Below, in pieces: positions 1 to 62,716 of a stretch of DNA of 64,000 nucleotides. The notes beneath the pieces were generated by a model. That model had not been told where the DNA came from. It saw only the letters and a list, made by a program, of their open reading frames with translations, and did no database searches. This stretch comes from Gautieria morchelliformis (taxonomy: Eukaryota > Basidiomycota > Agaricomycetes > Gomphales > Gomphaceae): positions 1 to 64,000 of the forward strand of contig WHVA01000477.1 in assembly GCA_015179125.1 (NCBI GenBank), given 5' to 3'. How positions within the stretch are numbered: the first letter of the stretch is position 1; each line of letters begins with the position of its first letter. A program made the position numbers and the translations under genes.

Positions 1-459
1 CAGGGGACACCCTGTTTTCCATTTCCAGTTCCGACTCCATTTCCGACTCCGCTTCCGGTTCCGATTCCATCTCCGCATCCGCTTTCGGGAACGATTCCGC
101 TTCTGGGAGAACTTCCACCAGTTCCGTTCGCCTTGCCAGTTCCACTCCAATTTCCGACTTCCGCCCCGGAACAGTGTCGGAAATCAAGCGACTCGCATAA
201 TAGGTGGCATCAAGGGTCGATCAAGGGTCAGGGGGATACAGGGTTGATGGCGGGTGCCAAGCGTTGTCCCTGGCTGCGCAGCGTAGTATAATACGGGCTC
301 GCTGACATTGGGGGTCCTTAGACTTTTCTCTTTGGATTTCCCCTTGTCAGGTGAGAACCCCCTCTCTTGTATGCTCTGTTCATTTATACATACTTTGGAT
401 TTCCCCTTGTCAGTTGTGTGGTAGTGTGATCTCCACGACTAGCCAGGGTTGCCCTTACA
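1..459 (+). repeat. LTR of family A, long form (upstream copy)
   Basis: Matches the LTRs at 2673-3099 and 6361-6849 and the inverted copy at 62217-62716. The window starts at LTR base 4. U3 (about 1-180) is built from TTCCRN hexamers. A TATA-like TATAATAC lies near 288. The hairpin arm CTGACATTGGGG (302-313) pairs with CCCCTTGTCAG at 340-350 and with a second copy of that arm at 403-413. Between the two arms lies a 63-bp block (351-413) that starts GTGAG and ends CAG. The LTR ends GCCCTTACA. Confidence 0.85.
302..413 (+). promoter_or_regulatory. LTR A leader hairpin with duplicated 3' arm
   Basis: CTGACA...GGGG (302-313) can pair with either of two identical downstream arms, CCCCTTGTCAG at 340-350 or 403-413. 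The stem is 6 bp plus 4 bp around a small internal mismatch. The sequence between the two arm ends runs GTGAGA...CAG (351-413) with a pyrimidine tract before the final CAG, so it has the form of a short fungal intron. It lies just downstream of a TATA-like motif, so it should be in the transcribed leader. The role is inferred; the repeats and pairing are directly visible. Confidence 0.55.
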
Positions 460-2672: not shown

Positions 2673-3099
2673 TGTCAGGGGACACCCTGTTTTCCATTTC
2701 CAGTTCCGACACCACACCCAGTTCCGACTCCATTTCCGACTCCGGTTCCGGTTCAGATTCCATCTCCGCCTCCGCTTTCGGAAATGATTCCACTTCTGGG
2801 AGAACTTCCACCAGTTCTGTTCGCCTTGCCAGTTCCACTCCAATTTCCGACTTCCACTCTCGGAACAGTGTCGGAAATCAAGCGACTCGCGTAATAGGTG
2901 GCATCAAGGGTCGATCAAGGGTCAGGGAGGTCAGGAGGATGCAGGGTTGATGGCGGGTGCCAAGTGTTGTCCCTGGCTGCGCAGCGTAGTATAATCCGGG
3001 CTCGCTGACATTGGGGGTCCTTAGACTTTTCTCTTTGGATTTCCCCTTGTCAGTTGTGTGGTAGTGTGATCTCCACAACCAGCCAGGGTTGCCCTTACA
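2673..3099 (+). repeat. LTR of family A, short form (downstream copy)
   Basis: Starts TGTCAGGGGACACC and ends GCCCTTACA, 427 bp. It aligns with the LTR at 1-459 but has only one copy of the hairpin 3' arm and lacks the 63-bp GTGAG...CAG block. The LINE1 endonuclease reading frame begins at the next base (3100). Confidence 0.88.
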
Positions 3100-6000
3100 G
3101 ACTTCAACAGACACCACCCGCTCTGGGACGAAGAACGAAACTCACACCTATTCACCGCAGCGAATCTCGACGCAGCACAAATACTACTAGAGCTGCTGGC
3201 CCAACACGACATGCTGACGGCCCTACCAAAGGACATCCCGACACTCTGTGCGACCAACTCCAAGAACCTCACCAGACCAGACAACCTATTCTGCACATCC
3301 AACCTACTCGACCTGTTCACGCGATGTACAGCTTACCCAGACCACAGGCTACCCTGCACGGACCACTTCCCCATCTCCAGTACCATCGACGTCTCGGTAC
3401 CCAGAGTCGATGACCCAGCGAGAAGGGACTGGCGCCAGGTGGACTGGACGCAGTACCGTGAGCATCTTCAAAGGCGGCTGGAAGAGGGGAGCCCACCCTC
3501 TGACATCAGTAGCCGAGAGGAGTTCGAGAACAGACTAACGCAGCTCACCACGGCTATCCACACAACGGTCGAGGAACTCGTACCATACTCCAAACCATCC
3601 CCATACTCCAAGCGCTGGTGGACAAAGGAACTCAGTGTAGCCAGGTCCAAGATGCGAGCAGCAGCCAGGCACGCAAACCGGGCGCAACATGACCCACTCC
3701 ACCTGAGCCACCAAGAATACTGCAACGCGCGTAACGAGTACACTGACAAGATACGCAGTACGAAGCAAGACTTCTGGTTCGACTGGCTAGAACACGCCGA
3801 CGAGAAAACAGTGTGGACGGCGAGCCGACTCGTCTCGGGCCCATCCACCAATGGGGGCCGCACCAGAATCCCACCACTCACGACAACAACGGAGACCGGG
3901 GCAGTAAGCAAGGTCACTGACAACAACGATAAAAGCAAGCTCCTATTCAAGTCCTTCTTTCCCTCACAAGGGGCACGACCACAGCATGAGAACATCACCC
4001 GATACCCCACCCCTGCGTTCGAGTACGAGCCAATCTCCAACCAACAGGTCTTCCGAATCATCGACAGAATGGGCCCATACAAGGCCCCAGGCCCATCCGG
4101 CCTATCTAACTCGGTACTCACACAATGCGCCAACATACTAACCCCATACCTAGGATGTTTGTACCGCGCGACCTTCCATCTCGACATATACCCGCAAGAA
4201 TGGAAAACTACCACCATAGCGGCACTTAGGAAGCCAGGCAAAATGGACTACATGGTAGCTAAAGCTTACAGACCTATTACGCTAATGGAAACCCTAGCAA
4301 AGCCATTGTCCGGATGCGTAGCAGAAACACTGTCATATCACGCAGAGGCATTGAAGATGCTGCCTGACACCAACTTCGGGGGGCGACCAGGACGAAGCAC
4401 GTCCGACGCCCTCCACCTGACAGTCGACTACATCAAATCACAGTGGAGGAAAGGGCAAGTCGTTTCCGCACTTTTCTTAGATGTTAAAGGGGCCTTCCCA
4501 AGTGTCACAGTTGACACGCTAATCCATGACATGCGAGCGAGAGGGGTACCCCCGCAGTACACCAAATGGGTCGGGAACAGGCTACAGGGCCGGCAAACTA
4601 GGATCCAATTCGACGACTTCCTCTCTGACCCCCTCAGTATCGACAATGGGTGCGACCAAGGAGACCCCATATCAGTTATTCTATATCATTTCTACAACGC
4701 CGGTCTCATCGAGGTAGCGCGAAGAGAACAAAACGAGATCGCACCGGCCTTCATCGACAATGTCACTTTTCTGGCAGCGGGCCCCTCGTTCACTCACACG
4801 CATGCAACAATCGAACGGATGATGGTCAGGGAGGGAGGAGCGCAAGACTGGTCGCGATCTCATAACTCACAGTTCAAGATGGACAAGATGCAAGTCATCG
4901 ACTTCACAAGGAAACCGGAAAAAGACCCAACACACCCTGGCAAGACGAGGCCTCTCCACCACCACCCCATCGACATCAGTGGCACCATCATCACCCCAAC
5001 CCCCACACACAAGCTGCTAGGCGTCATACTAGACCAGGAGCTGCGGTTCAGAGAGCACACAGCGTACGCAGCCGCCAAGGGTACTGACTGGGTGATGCAA
5101 TTTAGACGACTATCCAAGCCGACGAAGGGGATGTCACACAAAAACATGAGGCAGCTATATCTATCTATCGCAATCCCCAAAATGTTGTACGCCGCGGACG
5201 TGTGGTACACACCAGTCAGGAAAGAACCCGGCGATAGAAAATCCAAGGGTTCATTGGGAGCGGCTAGCAAACTGGCGAGGGTCCAGAGAATGGCATCGAT
5301 CCACATCACAGGCGCTCTACGCTCCACTCCCACCGACCTCCTCGATGCTCACGCAGACCTGCTCCCAATGAAGCTCCGGCTCGACCAGCACACGCATGGC
5401 GCAGCGCTCTGGCTGCTCACACTCCCGCAAGACCACCCCCTACACTCCCGGCTACGGAGGGCCACCAGGTACGTAAAGAGACACAGATCGCCTCTCCACG
5501 CGCACAACCTACACCCTGGGACGACAGAAACGATCCACCCGATGCGCCACGAACCCCGGTGGCGACTACCGGTCCTCACAACAATCCCTGAGAACGAGGA
5601 GCAGGCAATAGAGTACGACAAGCTCAAGTCAATGACCAACATCTTCAGACTTTACGCAGATGGCTCCAGCCTAGACGGAGGGGTTGGAGCAGCGGCGGTC
5701 CTGTATGTCAACGGAATACAAAGCAGGTCGCTACAGCACTTCCTGGGGCCAGATACGCAGCACACGGTATATGAGGCGGAACTGGTGGGCCTCATACTAG
5801 CGGCAACAATGCTACAAGAACTTGATCACCTAGAAGACGCCGCGATCGCCGTTGACAACCAATCGGCCATAACAGGCCTGAGTAGCTTCAAGAGCGCGCC
5901 GGGACAACACCTCGCAGACCACTTTCTCCAGCAAATGCAAGAAGTAGCCAGACGGCATCAAGGCGCTCCACTAGAGGTCTACTGGGTTCCCGGAGACAAA

Positions 6001-6360
6001 GGTATCAGAGGCAACAAAGCAGCGGATACGATGGCAAAACAAGCAGTGCAAGGATGTAGCAGCCCCGAAAACTCTCTCCTGACTCTGCTCCGCTCCCCAC
6101 TCCCGCTCAGCAAATCCGCACTTAAAACGGCCCACAACAAACAGCTCAAAAGTGAGACCTCCCTCATGTTCGCTAACTCTCCGAGACTCCACAGGATCAG
6201 AGCCATCGACCCCAAAATGCCGTCGGCTGACTACCAGAAAATAGCAGCGACGCTACCACGTCGCCAAGCCAGCATATTAGTCCAGCTTCAAACAGGACAT
6301 GCCCAGCTGCAGCGACATTTGTATAAAATGGGTCTAGTGGGCACGCCGCTGTGTCCCTCC

Positions 6361-6849
6361 TGTCGGGGGACACCCTGTTTTCCATTTCCAGTTCCGACAC
6401 CACACCCAGTTCCGGCTCCATTTACGACTCCGGTTCCGGTTCCGATTCCATCTCCGCCTCCGCTTTCGGAAATGATTCCGCTTCTGGGAGAACTTCCACC
6501 AGTTCTGTTTGCCTTGCCAGTTCCACTCCAATTTCCAACTTCCACTCTCGGAACAGTGTCGGAAATCAAGCGACTCGCGTAATAGGTGGCATCAGGGTCT
6601 ATCAAGGGTCAGGGTGGTCAGGGAGGTGCAGGGTTGATGGTGGGTGCCAAGTGTTGTCCCTGGCTGCGCAGCATAGTATAATACGGGCTCGCTGACATTG
6701 GGGGTCCTTAGACTTTTCTCTTTGGATTTCCCCTTGTCAGGTGAGAATCCCCTCTCTTGTATACTCTATTCATTTATACATACTTTGGATTTCCCCTTGT
6801 CAGTTGTGTGGTAGTGTGATCTCCACAACCGGCCAGGGTTGCCCTTACA
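6361..6849 (+). repeat. Solo LTR of family A (long form) in LINE1, TSD CCTCC
   Basis: TGTCGGGGGACACC...GCCCTTACA, 489 bp. It is flanked by the 5-bp direct repeat CCTCC (6356-6360 and 6850-6854). It falls inside the codons of the C-terminal zinc motif of LINE1, and the LINE frame resumes after the second CCTCC. It carries both hairpin 3' arms and the 63-bp GTGAG...CAG block (6741-6803). Confidence 0.93.
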
Positions 6850-10453: not shown

Positions 10454-10995
10454 TGTCAGGGGAACACCGATCGCACTGTGCATGATCACACTGTGCATGA
10501 TCGCACTGTGTATGATCGCACTGTGCATGATCACACTGTGTATGGTCACACTGTGTATGATCACACTGTGCATGATCGCACTGTGCGTGGTCGCACTGTG
10601 TACGATCGCACTGTGCGTTATCGCACACTGCATCATCGCAGCGTGTTGTTGGTGGCCCCTGAGCTTCTCCTAGCCTTTAGCATCCTTTTGTCTTGTGTTC
10701 CATTTATTTCCCTTTCTGTTCCGGCCCCTTCCGACATCATTCCTTCCTTATCTGTCCAGCCCTGTTATCGCTGGCATGATTGCTTATGTAACTCGGGCAT
10801 TCGGTGATCGGGCTAGCATGCCCGCGTTTGCTTATAGTCGTAGTTAGGTGGCGAAGGGGTTCCTTAGAGTTTTCTCTTTGGATCCCCCTTCGCCAGGTAT
10901 GTCTATGTCATGTATATAGTTCTCTATCTCACTTTGGATCCCCCTTCGCCAGTTCGCCTCTTGAGTGTAGAGCGTCTGCCTAGGTTGCCCTTATA
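10454..10995 (+). repeat. 5' LTR of element B (long form)
   Basis: TGTCAGGGGAACACC...GCCCTTATA, 542 bp. U3 (about 10470-10640) is a tandem array of 15-bp units of the CACTGTGCATGATCG type, about ten copies. A hairpin (10849-10859 with 10885-10895) is followed by a 56-bp GTATGT...CAG block (10897-10952), which ends with a second copy of the hairpin 3' arm. The array is longer than in the 3' LTR, and the 56-bp block is missing there. Confidence 0.9.
10849..10952 (+). promoter_or_regulatory. LTR B leader hairpin with duplicated 3' arm and intron-like block
   Basis: TGGCGAAGGGG (10849-10859) is an exact 11-base reverse complement of CCCCTTCGCCA at 10885-10895 and again at 10941-10951. Between them lies GTATGT...CAG (10897-10952, 56 bp), with a textbook fungal 5' splice site and a pyrimidine-rich 3' end. 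Family A has the same layout with different arm bases, so pairing rather than sequence appears to be kept. A function in splicing, packaging or strand transfer is inference. Confidence 0.6.
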
Positions 10996-11113
10996 GTAGA
11001 AAACTCTCTCTAGAGCACCGGTTGCAAAATCGCCCGACTTCAAATCGACCACCCTTCGAAAGCAGCGATTTTAGCAATCCTTTCTCATACCCTGACACCC
11101 TCTAACACTTACC

Positions 11114-12145
11114 ATGGACAACCTGCCATCTGCTGCTGAAGTTTTGGACCGCTTGGTGGTGATAGAGCAAGAGTTGATGAGGGAGAGGCAGGAAAAACAA
11201 GATCTGGAGACGAGGTTGAACACCCTGCAGGCTACGACCACTGGGCTGATCGCAGGACTCCCTAGTCGCGTTCGCGCCTCCTCAAAATGGACAGCAGAGC
11301 CAGCAAAGCCCTCCGAGTATGATGGGGATCGTGCAAACGGTCGCAACTTCATCCAGTCGTGCAGCCTCTACCTGGGTGTGTGTGCAAGCAACTTTCCAGA
11401 CGAGCAGTCGCAGATCCTTTGGGCGATGTCCTTCATGAAAACAGGAAGGGCTGCGACTTTCACCACACGCGCATTCACTCATGAAGCGAAGCATGGGGCG
11501 CCGCTCTACGCGACCTGGAAGGATTTCGTTGAGGCTTTTCGCCAGCAGTTCTACCCCCTACATGAGGCCACCGATGCTATGAATCAACTGGAATCGCGCC
11601 AGTACCACCAGGGCAAGCGTTCAGTTGACGGATACATCGATGGGTTCGAGGAGCTGGTTGAGAAGGCCGAATACACAGATGGGCGATCGATTGTGATGAA
11701 GTTCCGTCGAGGTCTCGAGCCTGCAATCCAGAGTCGCATTGCATTGATGTTGGATGGCAGGCCAAAGGATGATGACCCTTCTGCATGGTATGGAGCTGCG
11801 AGAACAGTCGCACTCACACGTGCGGCCAATGAAGCATTCCAGGGGCCTAGGGTGACGAACAGTGGCCCTCCCCCACCGCCAGTTTTTCGCAAGGCAGGTG
11901 AATCACACACCAGGTTCACCAGTCAGTTCTCTTCAAGGCCAGCGATAATGCCAGTGCCCACTCCCCTTCCAAATGCCTCTGGGCCTGCTCCGATGGACGT
12001 GGATGCTGCGAAGAAGCGGTTCCCACAGCCACTCACCTGTTGGCGCTGCGGAAAGGTTGGACACTTTGCGCGAGAATGCCCGCAGGCCTACGACATCCGC
12101 TACATGACAGCTGATGAGCGTGAGGAGCTTTTGGAGCACTGGATA
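11114..12145 (+). pseudogene. Element B gag, interrupted by hAT1
   Basis: Starts at ATG 11114 with a coiled-coil-like acidic/basic helix (VLDRLVVIEQELMRERQEKQ). A capsid-type retrotransposon gag region follows (about 11300-11800, with RQFYPLHEATDAMNQLESRQY). Then come a proline-rich linker and a single CCHC zinc knuckle, CWRCGKVGHFARECP (about 12040-12084), for nucleic-acid binding in the particle. It runs into the hAT target duplication at 12146. The continuing coding sequence lies beyond 15776. Fossil. Confidence 0.88.
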
Positions 12146-12154
12146 GTCGCTGCT

Positions 12155-12300
12155 AGTGTTGTTTACAGTTCAGTTCATTTCGATTCAGTCATGAACTGGT
12201 TCGACTTTTTGCCCATGTAATCAGCTCCAGCTCAGTTCACTAACCAGTTCAGCGCATGGACCGGTTCAGAACTGGCTTGGAACCGGTTCTTTATCAGTTC
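12155..12300. promoter_or_regulatory. hAT1 left subterminal repeat cluster
   Basis: Repeated CAGTTCAG/CCAGTTCA/GGAACCGGTTC words sit close to the terminal repeat and are mirrored at about 15610-15760 near the other end. Probably transposase binding sites; binding itself is inference. Confidence 0.6.
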
Positions 12301-15776: not shown

Positions 15777-18700
15777 GGATGTGCGAGATGTCGCTGAGGA
15801 AGAGGTTGAGAAGGATGAGGCGGAGGATTTTATGTCGCGCAGCGAGTGAGAGATGTGCCCTCGCTGCCCCTGTCCAATCGCTTTGCTGCTCTGTCAATAG
15901 CCCCAGATACTGAAGATACATTCCCTGTGTCAGAAACTGGGTCGCACACAGCAAGCGATAAAGACACATCAACCGCCAACATTCCGAAAGGTCCTTCACC
16001 ACGACTGAAGCGTTGGGAGCGAGCTCTTCCCAAGCACTTTGTGGTTGCATCCGTTCCCTCTCCAAATTCGATGAACCTCAAGGTAGAGATCCAGACAACA
16101 GACACTGCTGAGGTCAAAGGAGTGACTGCACTCCTCGACAGTGGTGCGACCGGGTTGTTCATCGACAGTGAATTTGTTGCCGCTCAGAAGTTAACCATGC
16201 GATCACTCACGCGCCCTGCCCCTGTCTACAATGTTGATGGCATTCCCAACGAGGGTGGAGCAATTCGCAATGTTGTTGATGTCATCCTGCGATTCCGCGA
16301 CCACTCTGAACGCGCTGTCTTTGCCGTTACGAACCTTGGGAAGCACAAGATGATCCTGGGCTATCCATGGCTCCGGGAGCACAACCCAGAGGTTAACTGG
16401 CGAATGCAGGAGGTGACACTGAATAGATGCCCTGCGCAGTGCCACACCTGCAGAGCAACACTGCGGGAAGAGCGGAGAGAGGAGGCGAGAATACGTGCAT
16501 GCCGCATGGGCCCCCTGCCTCAGATGGTGGAAGAGGAAGAGGGAGACGCAGAAGGAGATGAGGCTGGTGAGGTTGAGCCCCTGCTGGAGCCAGGTGACCG
16601 CCTGTTTGCGACTGTGTCCACGCCCAATGTACCTGTACCCATTATCGCAGCCACCACAACCACTTCGCAGCAGCTCGCGGAAAAGGCCCTTCGCAGTGTA
16701 CCCCCAGCGGAAAAGGAACTCATCCCTCCGTACCTCCGTGGCTTCGAGGATGTTTTCGCTAAAGAGTCCTTTGATTCGCTACCTGAGCGCAGGACATGGG
16801 ACCATGCGATTGAGCTCGAGCCAGGAGCCAAGCCATCTGTGTGCAAGGTTTACCCACTTGCCCCCAGTGAACAGTCACAGCTGGATGAATTCCTGCAGGA
16901 GAACCTGCGCACTGGCCGCATTCGCCCCTCGAAATCGTCTATGGCCAGCCCAGTGTTCTTCATCAAGAAGAAGGACGGGTCGCTGCGACTGGTCCAGGAT
17001 TATCACGCGCTCAATGCCATGACAGTGAAAAATCGCTACCCCCTTCCCATTATTTCTGAGCTCATTGCACAACTTCGTGGAGCGAAATACTTCACCAAGC
17101 TAGACGTGCGATGGGGCTTTAATAATGTGCGGATAAAGGATGGCGATGAGTGGAAGGCTGCGTTCCGCACTAATCGTGGCCTCTTTGAACCCCTCGTCAT
17201 GTTCTTTGGACTCACAAACAGCCCTGCGACCTTCCAGACCATGATGAACGACATCTTCCAAGACCTCATCATGGAAGGGCATGTGTGTGTGTACCTGGAT
17301 GACATCCTGATCTTCACCGACACCCTTGAGGAGCATCGCCGACTTCTGCGAATAGTCCTTGAGCGCCTATGGCAGCACAAGCTATATCTTCGCCCTGAGA
17401 AATGCGAATTTGAGCGAACAAAGATTGAGTACCTTGGGCTCATTGTGTCACATGGCAAGGTGGAGATGGACCCCGTCAAGGTTGCAGGTGTCATGGACTA
17501 GCCAGCCCCGGCAAATCGCAAGGAGGTGCAGGCATTCCTGGGCTTTGCCAACTTTTATCGCCGGTTCGTCGAGGGCTTCTCCCATCATGCACGTCCCCTG
17601 TTCGAGCTCACCAAGAAGGACGTACAATGGTAATGGGGTGATCGCGAACAGCAGGCATTTGATGGGCTGAAGCAGTGATTCACATCATCGCCGATCCTGC
17701 ACTTTGCAGATGACAATCAACCATACCGGGTGGAGGCTGACAGTTCAGATGTCGCCACTGGTGCAGTCCTATCCCAACAATCTCCAGACGACGACAAATG
17801 GCATCCGATTGCATTTTACTCCAAGAGTCTCACCCCTGTGGAGCGAAATTATGAGATTCATGACAAGGAGATGCTGGCGATTATTCGTGCCCTAGAGGAA
17901 TGGCGACATTTCCTTGAAGGTACTAAGCATCGCATTGAGATCTGGACTGACCACAAGAACCTGGAGTATTTTCGCACTGCAAAGAAGCTTAATCGCAGGC
18001 AGGCTAGATGGTCTCTCTACTTGTCGCATTTTGATTTTGAGCTTCACCATCGGCCTGGTGTCACGATGGGCAAGTCAGACGCACTGTCGCGGCGCTCAGA
18101 CCATGGGTCAGGATCGGGTGACAACAGCGATTTGACGCTCCTACGCCCAGAGCTGTTCATTGTTCGTGCCCTGGAGGGGCTCACCCTGGTGGGGGAAGAA
18201 CGTGGGATTATTCGCGACGTGAAGAAGGCATTTGGAGATGGGTCACTGGAGGATGAGGTCACAGGAGCGGTAAAGAAGCTGCGTGAGTCTGGTGGGAAAT
18301 CGCTGGTGTCTGCAGAGTGGGCTGAGATGGATGGGTTGCTCACATTCCGAGGTAAAGTTTACGTTCCAGACGTCCAGGACCTCAGGTGACGAATTGTCGC
18401 CCAGCACCATGATTCTCGGGTCGCTGGTCATCCGGGGCGATGGAAGACCCTTGAACTTGTCTCGCGAAATTACTGGTGGCCCCACATGTCGCGGTATGTT
18501 GGCGAGTACTCCAAGACGTGCGATTTATGCCTGCGAACAAAGGCACGAAGGCAGGCACCCCTCGGTGAACTCCATCCACTCCCTGTCCCTGAAGCTCACT
18601 GGGACACGATCAGTGTTGACTTCATTGTGGAACTGCCTGACGCACATGGCTACGATGCTGTTATTAATGTAGTGGACTCGGTCTCCAAGCGGGCACACTT

Positions 18701-19700
18701 CATCCCCACTAACACCACGATCACTGCAGCCGGAGCAGCACGACGTTTCCTACACCATGTCTGGAAGCTGCACGGCCTCCTGCGAACAGTGGTGTCAGAT
18801 CGCGGAGTCCAGTTCATGCGCGAATTCACTTGTGAGCTTTATCGCCTGCTGGGAATTCACATCGCAGCCTCCACAGCATACCACCCACAGACTGACGGAC
18901 AGACGGAGTGACTCAATCAAGAGCTAGAGCAGTACCTTCGACTCTTTGTCAATGAGCGACAGGACGACTGGGATGACCTCTTGCCCATGGCCGAGTTCCA
19001 GTACAACAACCATGTGCATGCTTCCACTCGTCAATCGCCCTTCATGCTGGACACTGGGCGGCACCCACGAATGGGCTTCGAACCACATCAACCCCCATTG
19101 AACCTTGAGTCTGTCAATGAATTCAAGGAACGCATGGAGGAGTCACTGTCAGAAGCGAAGTCAGCACTGGCAAAGTCGAAGGAGGACATGGCGATATACT
19201 ATAATCGCTGACGTGAACCAGCACCTATGTTTTCTCCGGGTGACAAGGTTTACCTCGATGCAAGCGATATACACACCACCCGTCCTTCGAAAAAGCTAGC
19301 TCATCGGCGACTTGGCCCCTACGCTGTTGAACGCCAAGTTGGGTCACAAGCCTACCGTCTCCGCCTCCCAAGGTCTCTAAGTCGCCTCCACCCTGTTTTC
19401 CCCGTCATTAAGCTCACTCCTGCTCCATCCGATCCAATCTTGGGTTGGCGACCATCCCCACCACCTCCACCCATCCTTAGAGAGGGTGATGAGCACTTTG
19501 ACGTTGAACAGGTGTTAGACAGTCGCATGCGAGCAAATCGCCTCCAGTTCCTCATCAAGTGGAAGGGGTATGGCTATGAAGAGAATTCTTGGGAAAATGA
19601 GGGCGATGTCCAAGCTCCTGACCTGATTGCTGACTTCTACCGTTCGCATCCAGGTGCCCCTCATTGCATTCGCTCCTTGGAGGCTGCCACATTTCAGAAT
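15777..19700 (+). pseudogene. Element B gag end and pol (protease, RT, RNase H, integrase, chromodomain)
   Basis: After the hAT element come an acidic linker and an aspartic protease (ALLDSGATGLFIDSEF, about 16127-16175). Reverse transcriptase follows (near 16850-17500, with PVFFIKKKDGSLRLVQDY and the catalytic VYLDDILIF at about 17290). RNase H comes next ([17 protein letters not shown], about 17850-17900), with the tether ending KSDALSRRSDH, and then integrase (zinc segment about 18400-18540; core with VDFIVELPDA near 18620 and TDGQTE near 18895). The module LAHRRLGPYAVERQ (about 19300) and a chromodomain (FDVEQVLDSR...FLIKWKGYGYEENSW, about 19497-19600) complete it. It is a standard chromovirus pol with several breaks, so not active. 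The closest relative in the window is family A. Confidence 0.9.
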
Positions 19701-19763
19701 CGCATCCCTGTTCCACCAGTGGGACTTCATGCGTCGGGTCACCGCATTCTAGAGGGGGGGTGA

Positions 19764-20224
19764 TGTCAGGGGAACACCGATCGCACTGTGTATGATCGCA
19801 CTGTGCATGATCGCACCGTGCATGATCGCACCGTGTATGATCGCACTGTGCATGGTCGCACCGCACTGTGCGTGGTCACACTGTGTACGATCGCACTGTG
19901 CGTTATCGCACACTGCATCATCGCAGCGTGTTGTTGGTGGCCCCTGAGCTTCTCCTAGCCTTTAGCATCCTTTTGTCTTGTGTTCCATTTATTTCCCTGT
20001 CTGTTCCGGCCCCTTCCGACATCATTCCTTCCTTATCTGTCCAGCCCTGTTATCGCCGGCATGATTGCTTATGTAACTCGGGCATTCGGTGATCGGGCTA
20101 GCATGCCCGCGTTTGCTTATAGTCGTAGTTAGGTGGCGAAGGGGTTCCTTAGAGTTTTCTCTTTGGATCCCCCTTCGCCAGTTCTCCGCTTGAGTGTAGA
20201 GTGTCTGCCTAGGTTGCCCTTATA
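19764..20224 (+). repeat. 3' LTR of element B (short form)
   Basis: TGTCAGGGGAACACC...GCCCTTATA, 461 bp. It is collinear with the 5' LTR, but the U3 array of 15-bp CACTGTG-containing units is shorter, and the 56-bp GTATGT...CAG block with one hairpin arm is absent. The hairpin itself remains. Confidence 0.9.
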
Positions 20225-62216: not shown

Positions 62217-62716
62217 TGTAAGGGCAACCCTAGCTAGCTGTGGGGATCACACTACCACACAGCTGACAAGGGTAAATCCAAAGTATATATATAAATGAAC
62301 AGAATATACAAGAGAGGGGATTCTCACCTGGCAAGGGGAAATCCGAAGAGAAAAGTCTAAGGATCCCCAATGTCAGCAAGCCTGTATTATACTATGCTAA
62401 TCCACAGTCAGGGACAAAACTCGGCACTCACCATCAACCCTGCATTCTCCTGACCTCCCTGACCCTTGACTGACCCTTGACTGACCCTTGATGCCACATA
62501 CTAAGTGAGTCGCTTGACTTCGGACACTGTTCAGAGGGTGGAAGTTGGAGAGTGGAGGGGAATTGGAAAGGTGAACAGAACTGGTGGAAGGTCTCCCAGA
62601 AGCAGAATCATTTCTGAAAGCGGAGTTGGAAATGGAACCGGAACTGGAACTGGAGTTGGAAATAGAACCAGAACTTGGGGTAGTGTCGGAACTGGAAAAT
62701 AGGGTGTCCCCTGACA
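62217..62716 (-). repeat. Solo LTR of family A (inverted, long form), TSD GATTG
   Basis: TGTAAGGGCAACCC...GGGGACACCCTATTTTCC on the minus strand reading, 500 bp. It is flanked by GATTG (62212-62216 and 62717-62721) and inserted in gag fragment G. Both hairpin 3' arms and the intron-like block are present. The U3 here shows the hexamer array most clearly (GGAACY repeats, about 62600-62700). Confidence 0.92.

Follow-up and report, generated by a model that had tools for sequence, protein, structure and literature searches.

The window and its retroelements

The window analysed here is a stretch of 64,000 nucleotides from Gautieria morchelliformis, positions 1-64,000 of contig WHVA01000477.1, position 1 being the first base of the contig. 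Searches were extended to the 122 Mb assembly with its 1113 contigs, in which the contig of the window is C534. Two families of LTR elements, A and B, occupy the window, and their LTRs exist in a long form, which contains an intron-like block, and a short form. Other LTR families (C, D and F, also E and G) were met by chance at fetched loci: C is represented by one copy (L010), D by L075, the F leader by L021, and E and G by one decayed copy each. Two LTR rows whose LTR end could not be read were left out.

Family A begins with a long-form LTR at 1-459 (+) that is cut by the contig start. A sequence-only reading had taken it for an upstream (5′) LTR; that assignment is unsupported, as the LTR lies at the contig start and the family A primer-binding site is absent from the DNA behind it. 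The 3′ part of a family A pol gene (1739-2602, +), with a Tf2-1-like SH3 domain and a chromodomain, precedes the short-form 3′ LTR of a 5′-truncated element (2673-3099, +), which has a polypurine tract upstream. This LTR overlaps the start of a LINE-like open frame of 1170 codons (3070-6582) with endonuclease-like, reverse transcriptase and RNase H matches. Two long-form solo LTRs of family A, at 6361-6849 (+; target duplication CCTCC) and 62217-62716 (-; diverged and old, target duplication CAATC), both have the block, as had been claimed, the second with three base differences between the copies of its duplicated segment.

Family B comprises a long-form 5′ LTR (10454-10995, +), a gag open frame with Retrotrans_gag and zinc knuckle matches (11114-12220, +), a pol region of several separate frames encoding reverse transcriptase, RNase H, a Tf2-1-like SH3 domain and a chromodomain (15819-19763, +), and a short-form 3′ LTR (19764-20224, +). 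The U3 of this family opens with an array of a 15-bp unit, and the number of units differs between 10469-10656 and 19779-19941. The two B LTRs had been regarded as a pair, which their flanks do not support: GACAC stands at one and GTTAG at the other, with no common 5-bp duplication. The exact absence of the block from 2673-3099 and 19764-20224, in contrast, was read as described. Taken together, the frames of the window match Retrotrans_gag, zinc knuckle, RVT_1, RNase H, Tf2-1-like SH3 and chromodomain, with PF24626 (SH3_Tf2-1) and PF00385 (Chromo) both found in A and in B. Judged by these predicted domains, the elements are chromoviruses with Tf1/sushi features.

The intron-like block and the duplicated segment

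The LTR at 1-459 carries, all on the forward strand, a TATA motif (287-292), the U3 arm of a U3/R hairpin (302-317), the leader TTAGACTTTTCT (318-329) whose last ten bases, AGACTTTTCT (320-329), form the predicted self-primer and nucleotides 1-10 of the predicted RNA, copy 1 of a duplicated R segment (330-350) with a GT donor directly after it, and the intron-like block (351-413), composed of a GTGAG body (351-392) and copy 2 (393-413) with its CAG end. The B LTR at 10454 is built in the same order (+): U3 arm (10849-10863), leader (10864-10875), predicted self-primer AGAGTTTTCT (10866-10875), copy 1 (10876-10896), and a block (10897-10952) with a GTATGT body (10897-10931), copy 2 (10932-10952), a CAG end and three ATGs. 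The sizes and signals that had been reported for the block (63 bp, GTGAG...CAG in A; 56 bp, GTATGT...CAG in B) and the twofold occurrence of the arm are borne out, the last 21 bp of each block being an exact repeat of copy 1. Both lengths lie within the size range of fungal introns, and with the GT...AG limits they are what is expected of a spliceosomal intron. Candidate branch points are CTCAC, canonical-looking and just before copy 2 in B, and CATAC, not canonical-looking, in A.

The signals recur in the other families. Copy 1 is followed by GTGAGA in A, GTATGT in B, GTGTGT in C, GTGAGT in D and GTGAGG in E and in the truncated G, giving GTNNG behind copy 1 in A, B, C, D, E and G, and CAG forms the block end in A-E. 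The only F copy read is a short form, which continues with GTAGCC. In the predicted numbering copy 1 starts at RNA nucleotide 11, just after primer nucleotide 10; the repeat match stops at nucleotide 11 in A, B and E and enters the primer by 3 nt in C and 5 nt in D.

Within a family the two copies are alike, and between families they have changed together. Among 39 long A LTRs the copies are identical in 35, differ at one base in three and at three bases in one; among 26 long B LTRs, 13 are exact, 12 have one difference and one has an indel, and these B differences mostly fall on copy 2 because the search required an exact copy 1. Exact repeats are also present in the window copy of B and the single copy of C, though the copy sequence differs between families. 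The C copy sequence with its donor occurs at two places genome-wide, one of them exact. In family F an exact second copy stands 62-70 bp on in 35 of 54 exact leader-linked copies among the matches listed (contigs up to C600). The spacing of these F copies has two frequent sizes among the matches listed, 62-63 bp (13/35) and 68-70 bp (22/35). Alignment of the block bodies scored above all 500 shuffles for B/D and A/E, above 496 of 500 for A/D and above 497 of 500 for C/E, the other six pairs being lower. Because the bodies of B and D align, the three differences of D from B, which are present in both D copies, arose in concert.

One A LTR (L027, 1167-1600, +) has three tandem R-U5 units, in the order long, long, short, and each added unit begins at GGCTCGCTGAC, immediately past TTACA.

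Start codons were considered as a sign of splicing. The block holds three ATGs in the B LTR of the window and one in an A LTR (L003), while the exonic leader has none in 192 nt (B) and 264 nt (A); an ATG-free exonic leader arises in 0.08 (A) and 0.34 (B) of shuffled cases. Among 17 long 5′ LTRs, four report no block ATG, one of which (L036) is so scored only because a frame was called before the block, and three carry ATGs outside it. In view of these shuffle rates and counts, ATG depletion is too weak to serve as proof of splicing.

Evidence for self-priming

The ten bases before copy 1 are the exact complement of ten bases located 2 nt past the LTR, AGACTTTTCT/AGAAAAGTCT in A and AGAGTTTTCT/AGAAAACTCT in B, the primer-binding site of B in the window lying at 10998-11007 (+). 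Throughout the genome, 5′ LTRs are followed by GC-AGAAAAGTCT (A) or GT-AGAAAACTCT (B). Each family's own primer and site pair by 10/10 Watson-Crick matches in A, B, D and F, while cross-family pairs reach 5-9/10, with compensatory changes over the four families. From the leaders alone, the primer sites of D (L075), F (L021) and C (L010) were predicted as AGCTTTTCCT, ACTCTGTTCT and ACCTTGTTCT. A degenerate genome search after CCCTTAYAGN gave 45 sites: 31 as predicted for F, 9 as predicted for D and 5 others. The predictions were thus borne out for two of three sites (D and F), and the site predicted for C had no representative among the 45 matches genome-wide. The exact F leader lies upstream of 20 of the 31 F sites. 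By this complementarity of ten leader bases to the site just behind the LTR, the elements should self-prime.

The position of the putative RNA start can be compared with that of the promoter. The TATA motif lies 33 nt 5′ of primer nucleotide 1 in A, B, C, D and F and 35 nt in E, and G has only TAACA, 31 nt before primer nucleotide 1. This spacing in six of the seven families is consistent with the predicted 5′ end at the primer, in which case the RNA would open with the primer bases. No LINE-made processed copies marking the RNA start were found; only two exact A leaders lack G at the five G-run places of the arm, and both keep TCC by the start. In folding predictions the primer:site helix has a probability of about 0.94-0.97, and the spliced leaders of A and B fold alike. 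Since spliced and unspliced leaders can both bring the primer onto the site, folding does not distinguish which of the two RNAs serves as template.

The U3/R hairpin

The 5′ arm of the hairpin sits between the TATA motif and the predicted RNA start. It pairs with copy 1 over 14 bp in A (with an internal loop), 14 bp in B, 17 bp in C, 12 bp in D and 17 bp in F; the D arm forms 15 bp with its own copy 2 versus 12 bp with copy 1. The folding energies of the hairpins are lower than those of 200 plain shuffles (z = -4.1 in A, -6.3 in B). The duplex within the family is the strongest: none of 12 cross pairs is as strong in B, C, D or F, and one of 12 is in A. In families E and G, however, copy 1 of the same family is not the best partner of the arm, with cross pairs as strong in 10/12 (E) and 3/12 (G) cases, and the E arm favours copy 2 (-20.6 kcal/mol versus -12.7 with copy 1). 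Covariation confirms the earlier statement that the arms have changed with pairing kept: several stem positions have two-sided changes, with A-T, G-C and T-A found at one of them, and the B arm includes 11 bp of perfect pairing.

Short forms keep the hairpin as well, and the predicted start site and primer lie in its loop in the seven families read. If the RNA starts at the primer, the arm belongs to U3, the hairpin would exist only at the RNA 3′ end, and the primer sequence would lie in its loop. The hairpin had been placed in the transcribed leader, which is doubtful given the position of its 5′ arm between TATA and the predicted start. When the A sequence is folded as a 3′ end, the minimum free energy structure pairs the arm with copy 2, while the ensemble favours copy 1.

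Arm variants in B copies (L055, L073, L074, L077, L087 and others) resemble CpG decay, with CG replaced by CA or TG, and such decay weakens arm pairing in old B copies.

Long and short forms in relation to LTR position

Exact family A junctions number 1880 for the long form and 198 for the short form genome-wide, and precise short forms were found in A, B and F. The sequence-only reading described a recurrent pattern of long 5′ and short 3′ LTRs, which the distribution of the block over LTR positions does not uphold. Among the matches listed (the first 100 places each), 17 long-long and 4 short-short A pairs stand 5.4-6.0 kb apart by exact position; no mixed A pair occurs among these matches, where one was detectable only on C1-C114 (100 long and 12 short sites). 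Polypurine tracts precede 3′ LTRs in the genome, and LTRs were scored by this tract and by the primer site. Of 32 short A LTRs read, 10 have a primer site after them, 6 a polypurine tract before them and 16 neither; for 39 long A LTRs the numbers are 11, 10 and 17, with both in one. Most short A rows came from the short-form search, so these totals are not frequencies. The 20 family F 5′ LTRs with the exact leader comprise 8 short and 12 long ones, in sharp distance classes of 58-59 and 119-129, a count that left out the 11 of 31 primer sites without an exact leader.

Intact elements in the genome carry 5-bp target duplications, by which pairs can be matched. Five matched A pairs are long-long (L046/47, L053/54, L058/59, L060/61, L065/66) and one is short-short (L029/30), the short-short elements being about 6.1 kb; two matched B pairs are long-long (L040/41, L087/88). 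One B element (L077/L076, on C132) is mixed in the reverse sense, with a short 5′ and a long 3′ LTR and the target duplication GGACC; its LTRs are about 18 kb apart, and given this spacing it probably contains internal insertions. The B pair L092/L093 is likewise short at the 5′ and long at the 3′ end, its duplication being unreadable since the start of the L093 LTR is missing, and the flanks of L078/L079 differ. The F locus on C470 looks mixed by position.

A tree of 70 A LTR rows, weakly resolved, requires 19 changes between long and short, against a shuffled mean of 22.8 and matched by 23 of 500 shuffles. Its well-supported branches force only two changes, and one group of 14 rows contains 12 short forms. 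A single short-form lineage is therefore unsupported, the short A LTRs being scattered, with some clustering, on a poorly resolved tree. Linkage of the block with U3 and U5 (mean r2) is 0.24 versus 0.27 in A and 0.15 versus 0.06 in B.

A possible cycle of intron loss and recovery

Two claims of different reach can be made about the block. The preferred reading, tentative and with a probability a little short of even, is that it is a spliceosomal leader intron in R/U5 of self-priming chromoviruses, built to survive reverse transcription through the cycle set out below. That this LTR-internal intron is regenerated by reverse transcription, with a second copy of the segment from primer end to splice donor letting the spliced strong-stop cDNA land downstream and a hairpin formed only at the 3′ end shielding the copy, is a proposal of slightly lower probability. 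Both build on the observed repeat limits, the compensated complementarity of primer and site, the covariation of arm and copy, the joint change of the copies and the precise short forms in A, B and F.

In the proposed cycle, transcription would begin at the A of AGASTTTTCT, producing an RNA whose 5′ end has no U3 arm. The donor would be free there and the block spliced out, after which minus-strand synthesis would be primed by RNA nucleotides 1-10, base-paired to the primer-binding site. The resulting strong-stop cDNA would terminate at nucleotide 11, where the duplicated segment begins. At the 3′ end of the RNA the U3 arm would be present and would pair with copy 1 up to the donor, so that the block is retained. 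The spliced strong-stop cDNA would then land on copy 2, since copy 2 with U5 offers the longer match: if the RNA includes 10-30 nt of U5 past copy 2, 31-51 bases would match on copy 2 versus 21 on copy 1. Extension through the intron, copy 1 and U3 would restore the intron in every cycle and rewrite copy 2 from copy 1. Short forms would result from landing on copy 1 or from slippage between the repeats. By bookkeeping of the strand transfer, spliced cDNA would give a long LTR when landing on copy 2 and a short one on copy 1, and unspliced cDNA would give a long LTR on copy 1 and a three-copy LTR on copy 2, a form that was not encountered.

The rewriting of copy 2 in each cycle would explain why the copies are identical, and the predicted self-primer in the hairpin loop accounts for the start of the repeat and for the probable absence of the 5′ arm from the RNA 5′ end. 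The overlap of the repeat into the primer, by 3 nt in C and 5 nt in D, exceeds what the model needs and, as read from these sequences, counts against it. The branch point of A that does not look canonical, the B copies that are identical in no more than 13 of 26 long LTRs under a search requiring an exact copy 1, and the E and G arms that do not prefer their own copy 1 weigh against it as well.

Among the alternatives, the one that fares best dispenses with an intron. An old tandem duplication in R, with GT and AG incidental, would lose its block by deletion between the 21-bp repeats, during reverse transcription or in chromosomal DNA, and slippage with conversion would keep the repeats alike. 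Such a deletion gives the same short sequence as splicing, so the junction does not identify splicing, and splicing and slippage both remain live as causes of the short form. The mixed B element with matched duplications, the mixed-looking F locus and the scatter of short forms on the A tree also favour a duplication. It is nevertheless unlikely, though a serious contender, as GTNNG and CAG are kept in A-E despite diverged block bodies and the repeat in these families extends from the end of the primer, or close to it, up to the donor.

A leader intron could also be kept in the ordinary retroviral way, the spliced RNA being translated and the unspliced RNA packaged and copied. Short forms would then stem from rare copying of spliced RNA, and the copies would be alike because the U3 arm has to pair with each of them if it is to mask either splice site of the 3′ LTR. 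The intron signals and ATGs within the block, the equal pairing of the arm with both copies in A, B and C, the meeting of primer and site in unspliced leaders too, and the existence of short-short elements all suit this explanation. However, it predicts neither a repeat that starts at the end of the primer nor identity of the copies over the little-pairing CTTTGGAT part. No exact third copy was found beside the 35 two-copy F LTRs among the matches listed, a further point against copying of unspliced RNA, although unspliced cDNA would in any case seldom mis-land. Retention by packaging of unspliced RNA is accordingly rather doubtful.

It is very improbable that the hairpin merely serves promoter DNA structure, 3′-end formation or the holding open of R for strand transfer, the block being tolerated; its persistence in short forms and the predicted start and primer in its loop would fit such roles, but the second copy and its upkeep would be unexplained. 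A systematic 5′-long/3′-short asymmetry arising in LTR synthesis, for which only the two arrangements in the window speak, can be given almost no credence, as it is contradicted by the A pairs among the matches listed, the short F 5′ LTRs, the scoring of LTRs and the reversed B element, and the pairing of the window LTRs is unsupported.

Comparison with known systems

The closest likeness is to Tf1/sushi elements such as Tf1 of S. pombe, which, as far as the consulted parts of two accounts describe them, share the chromodomain pol, the Tf2-1-like SH3 domain and a primer-adjacent folding that is predicted for the present elements (PMC10085805, PMC7175516). The primer-binding site directly behind the LTR is complementary to the first 11 bases of the RNA in Tf1, according to the portion consulted (PMC7175516), and to a predicted 10 here. 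In the consulted parts of these accounts (PMC10085805, PMC7175516), a duplicated R segment, an intron-like block in the LTR and a U3/R hairpin with the primer in its loop are absent, unlike in the present elements; a cryptic intron of Tf2 is mentioned in the part consulted, its place not being given (PMC7175516). The consulted sections on marY1 of Tricholoma matsutake give an LTR of 426 bp and an element of 6047 bp (PMC10211490, PMC10627285). The family A short LTR of 427 bp and its short-short elements of about 6.1 kb are similar, a comparison by lengths only, which makes family A probably marY1 itself or an element closely related to it. Unlike marY1 as described there, most A LTRs here have an extra 63 bp (1880 versus 198 exact junctions). 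No report of an intron lying wholly within an LTR was found in the literature searched, in which subscription papers are little covered; the one match concerned the bacterial ltrB gene.

If the proposed cycle is true, it represents a general way for retrotransposed sequences to escape the usual loss of introns: an element passing through spliced RNA could keep an intron, splicing, self-priming and strand transfer would be joined in a device of 100 bp, and the concerted evolution of both copies would be explained. Should only self-priming and covariation hold, they would still characterise about two thousand LTR copies of family A in this genome and set right the reading of asymmetric LTRs.

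Penelope-like elements transpose yet keep introns, with a different enzyme and different priming; to our knowledge, they have no duplicated segment able to restore an intron. In HTLV-1, BLV and foamy viruses a splice donor lies in R, within the LTR leader, the acceptor is far downstream and the full-length RNA is packaged, and in HTLV-1 a U3/R structure forms only at the RNA 3′ end. Unlike in these viruses, the predicted donor and acceptor of the Gautieria elements both lie within the LTR.
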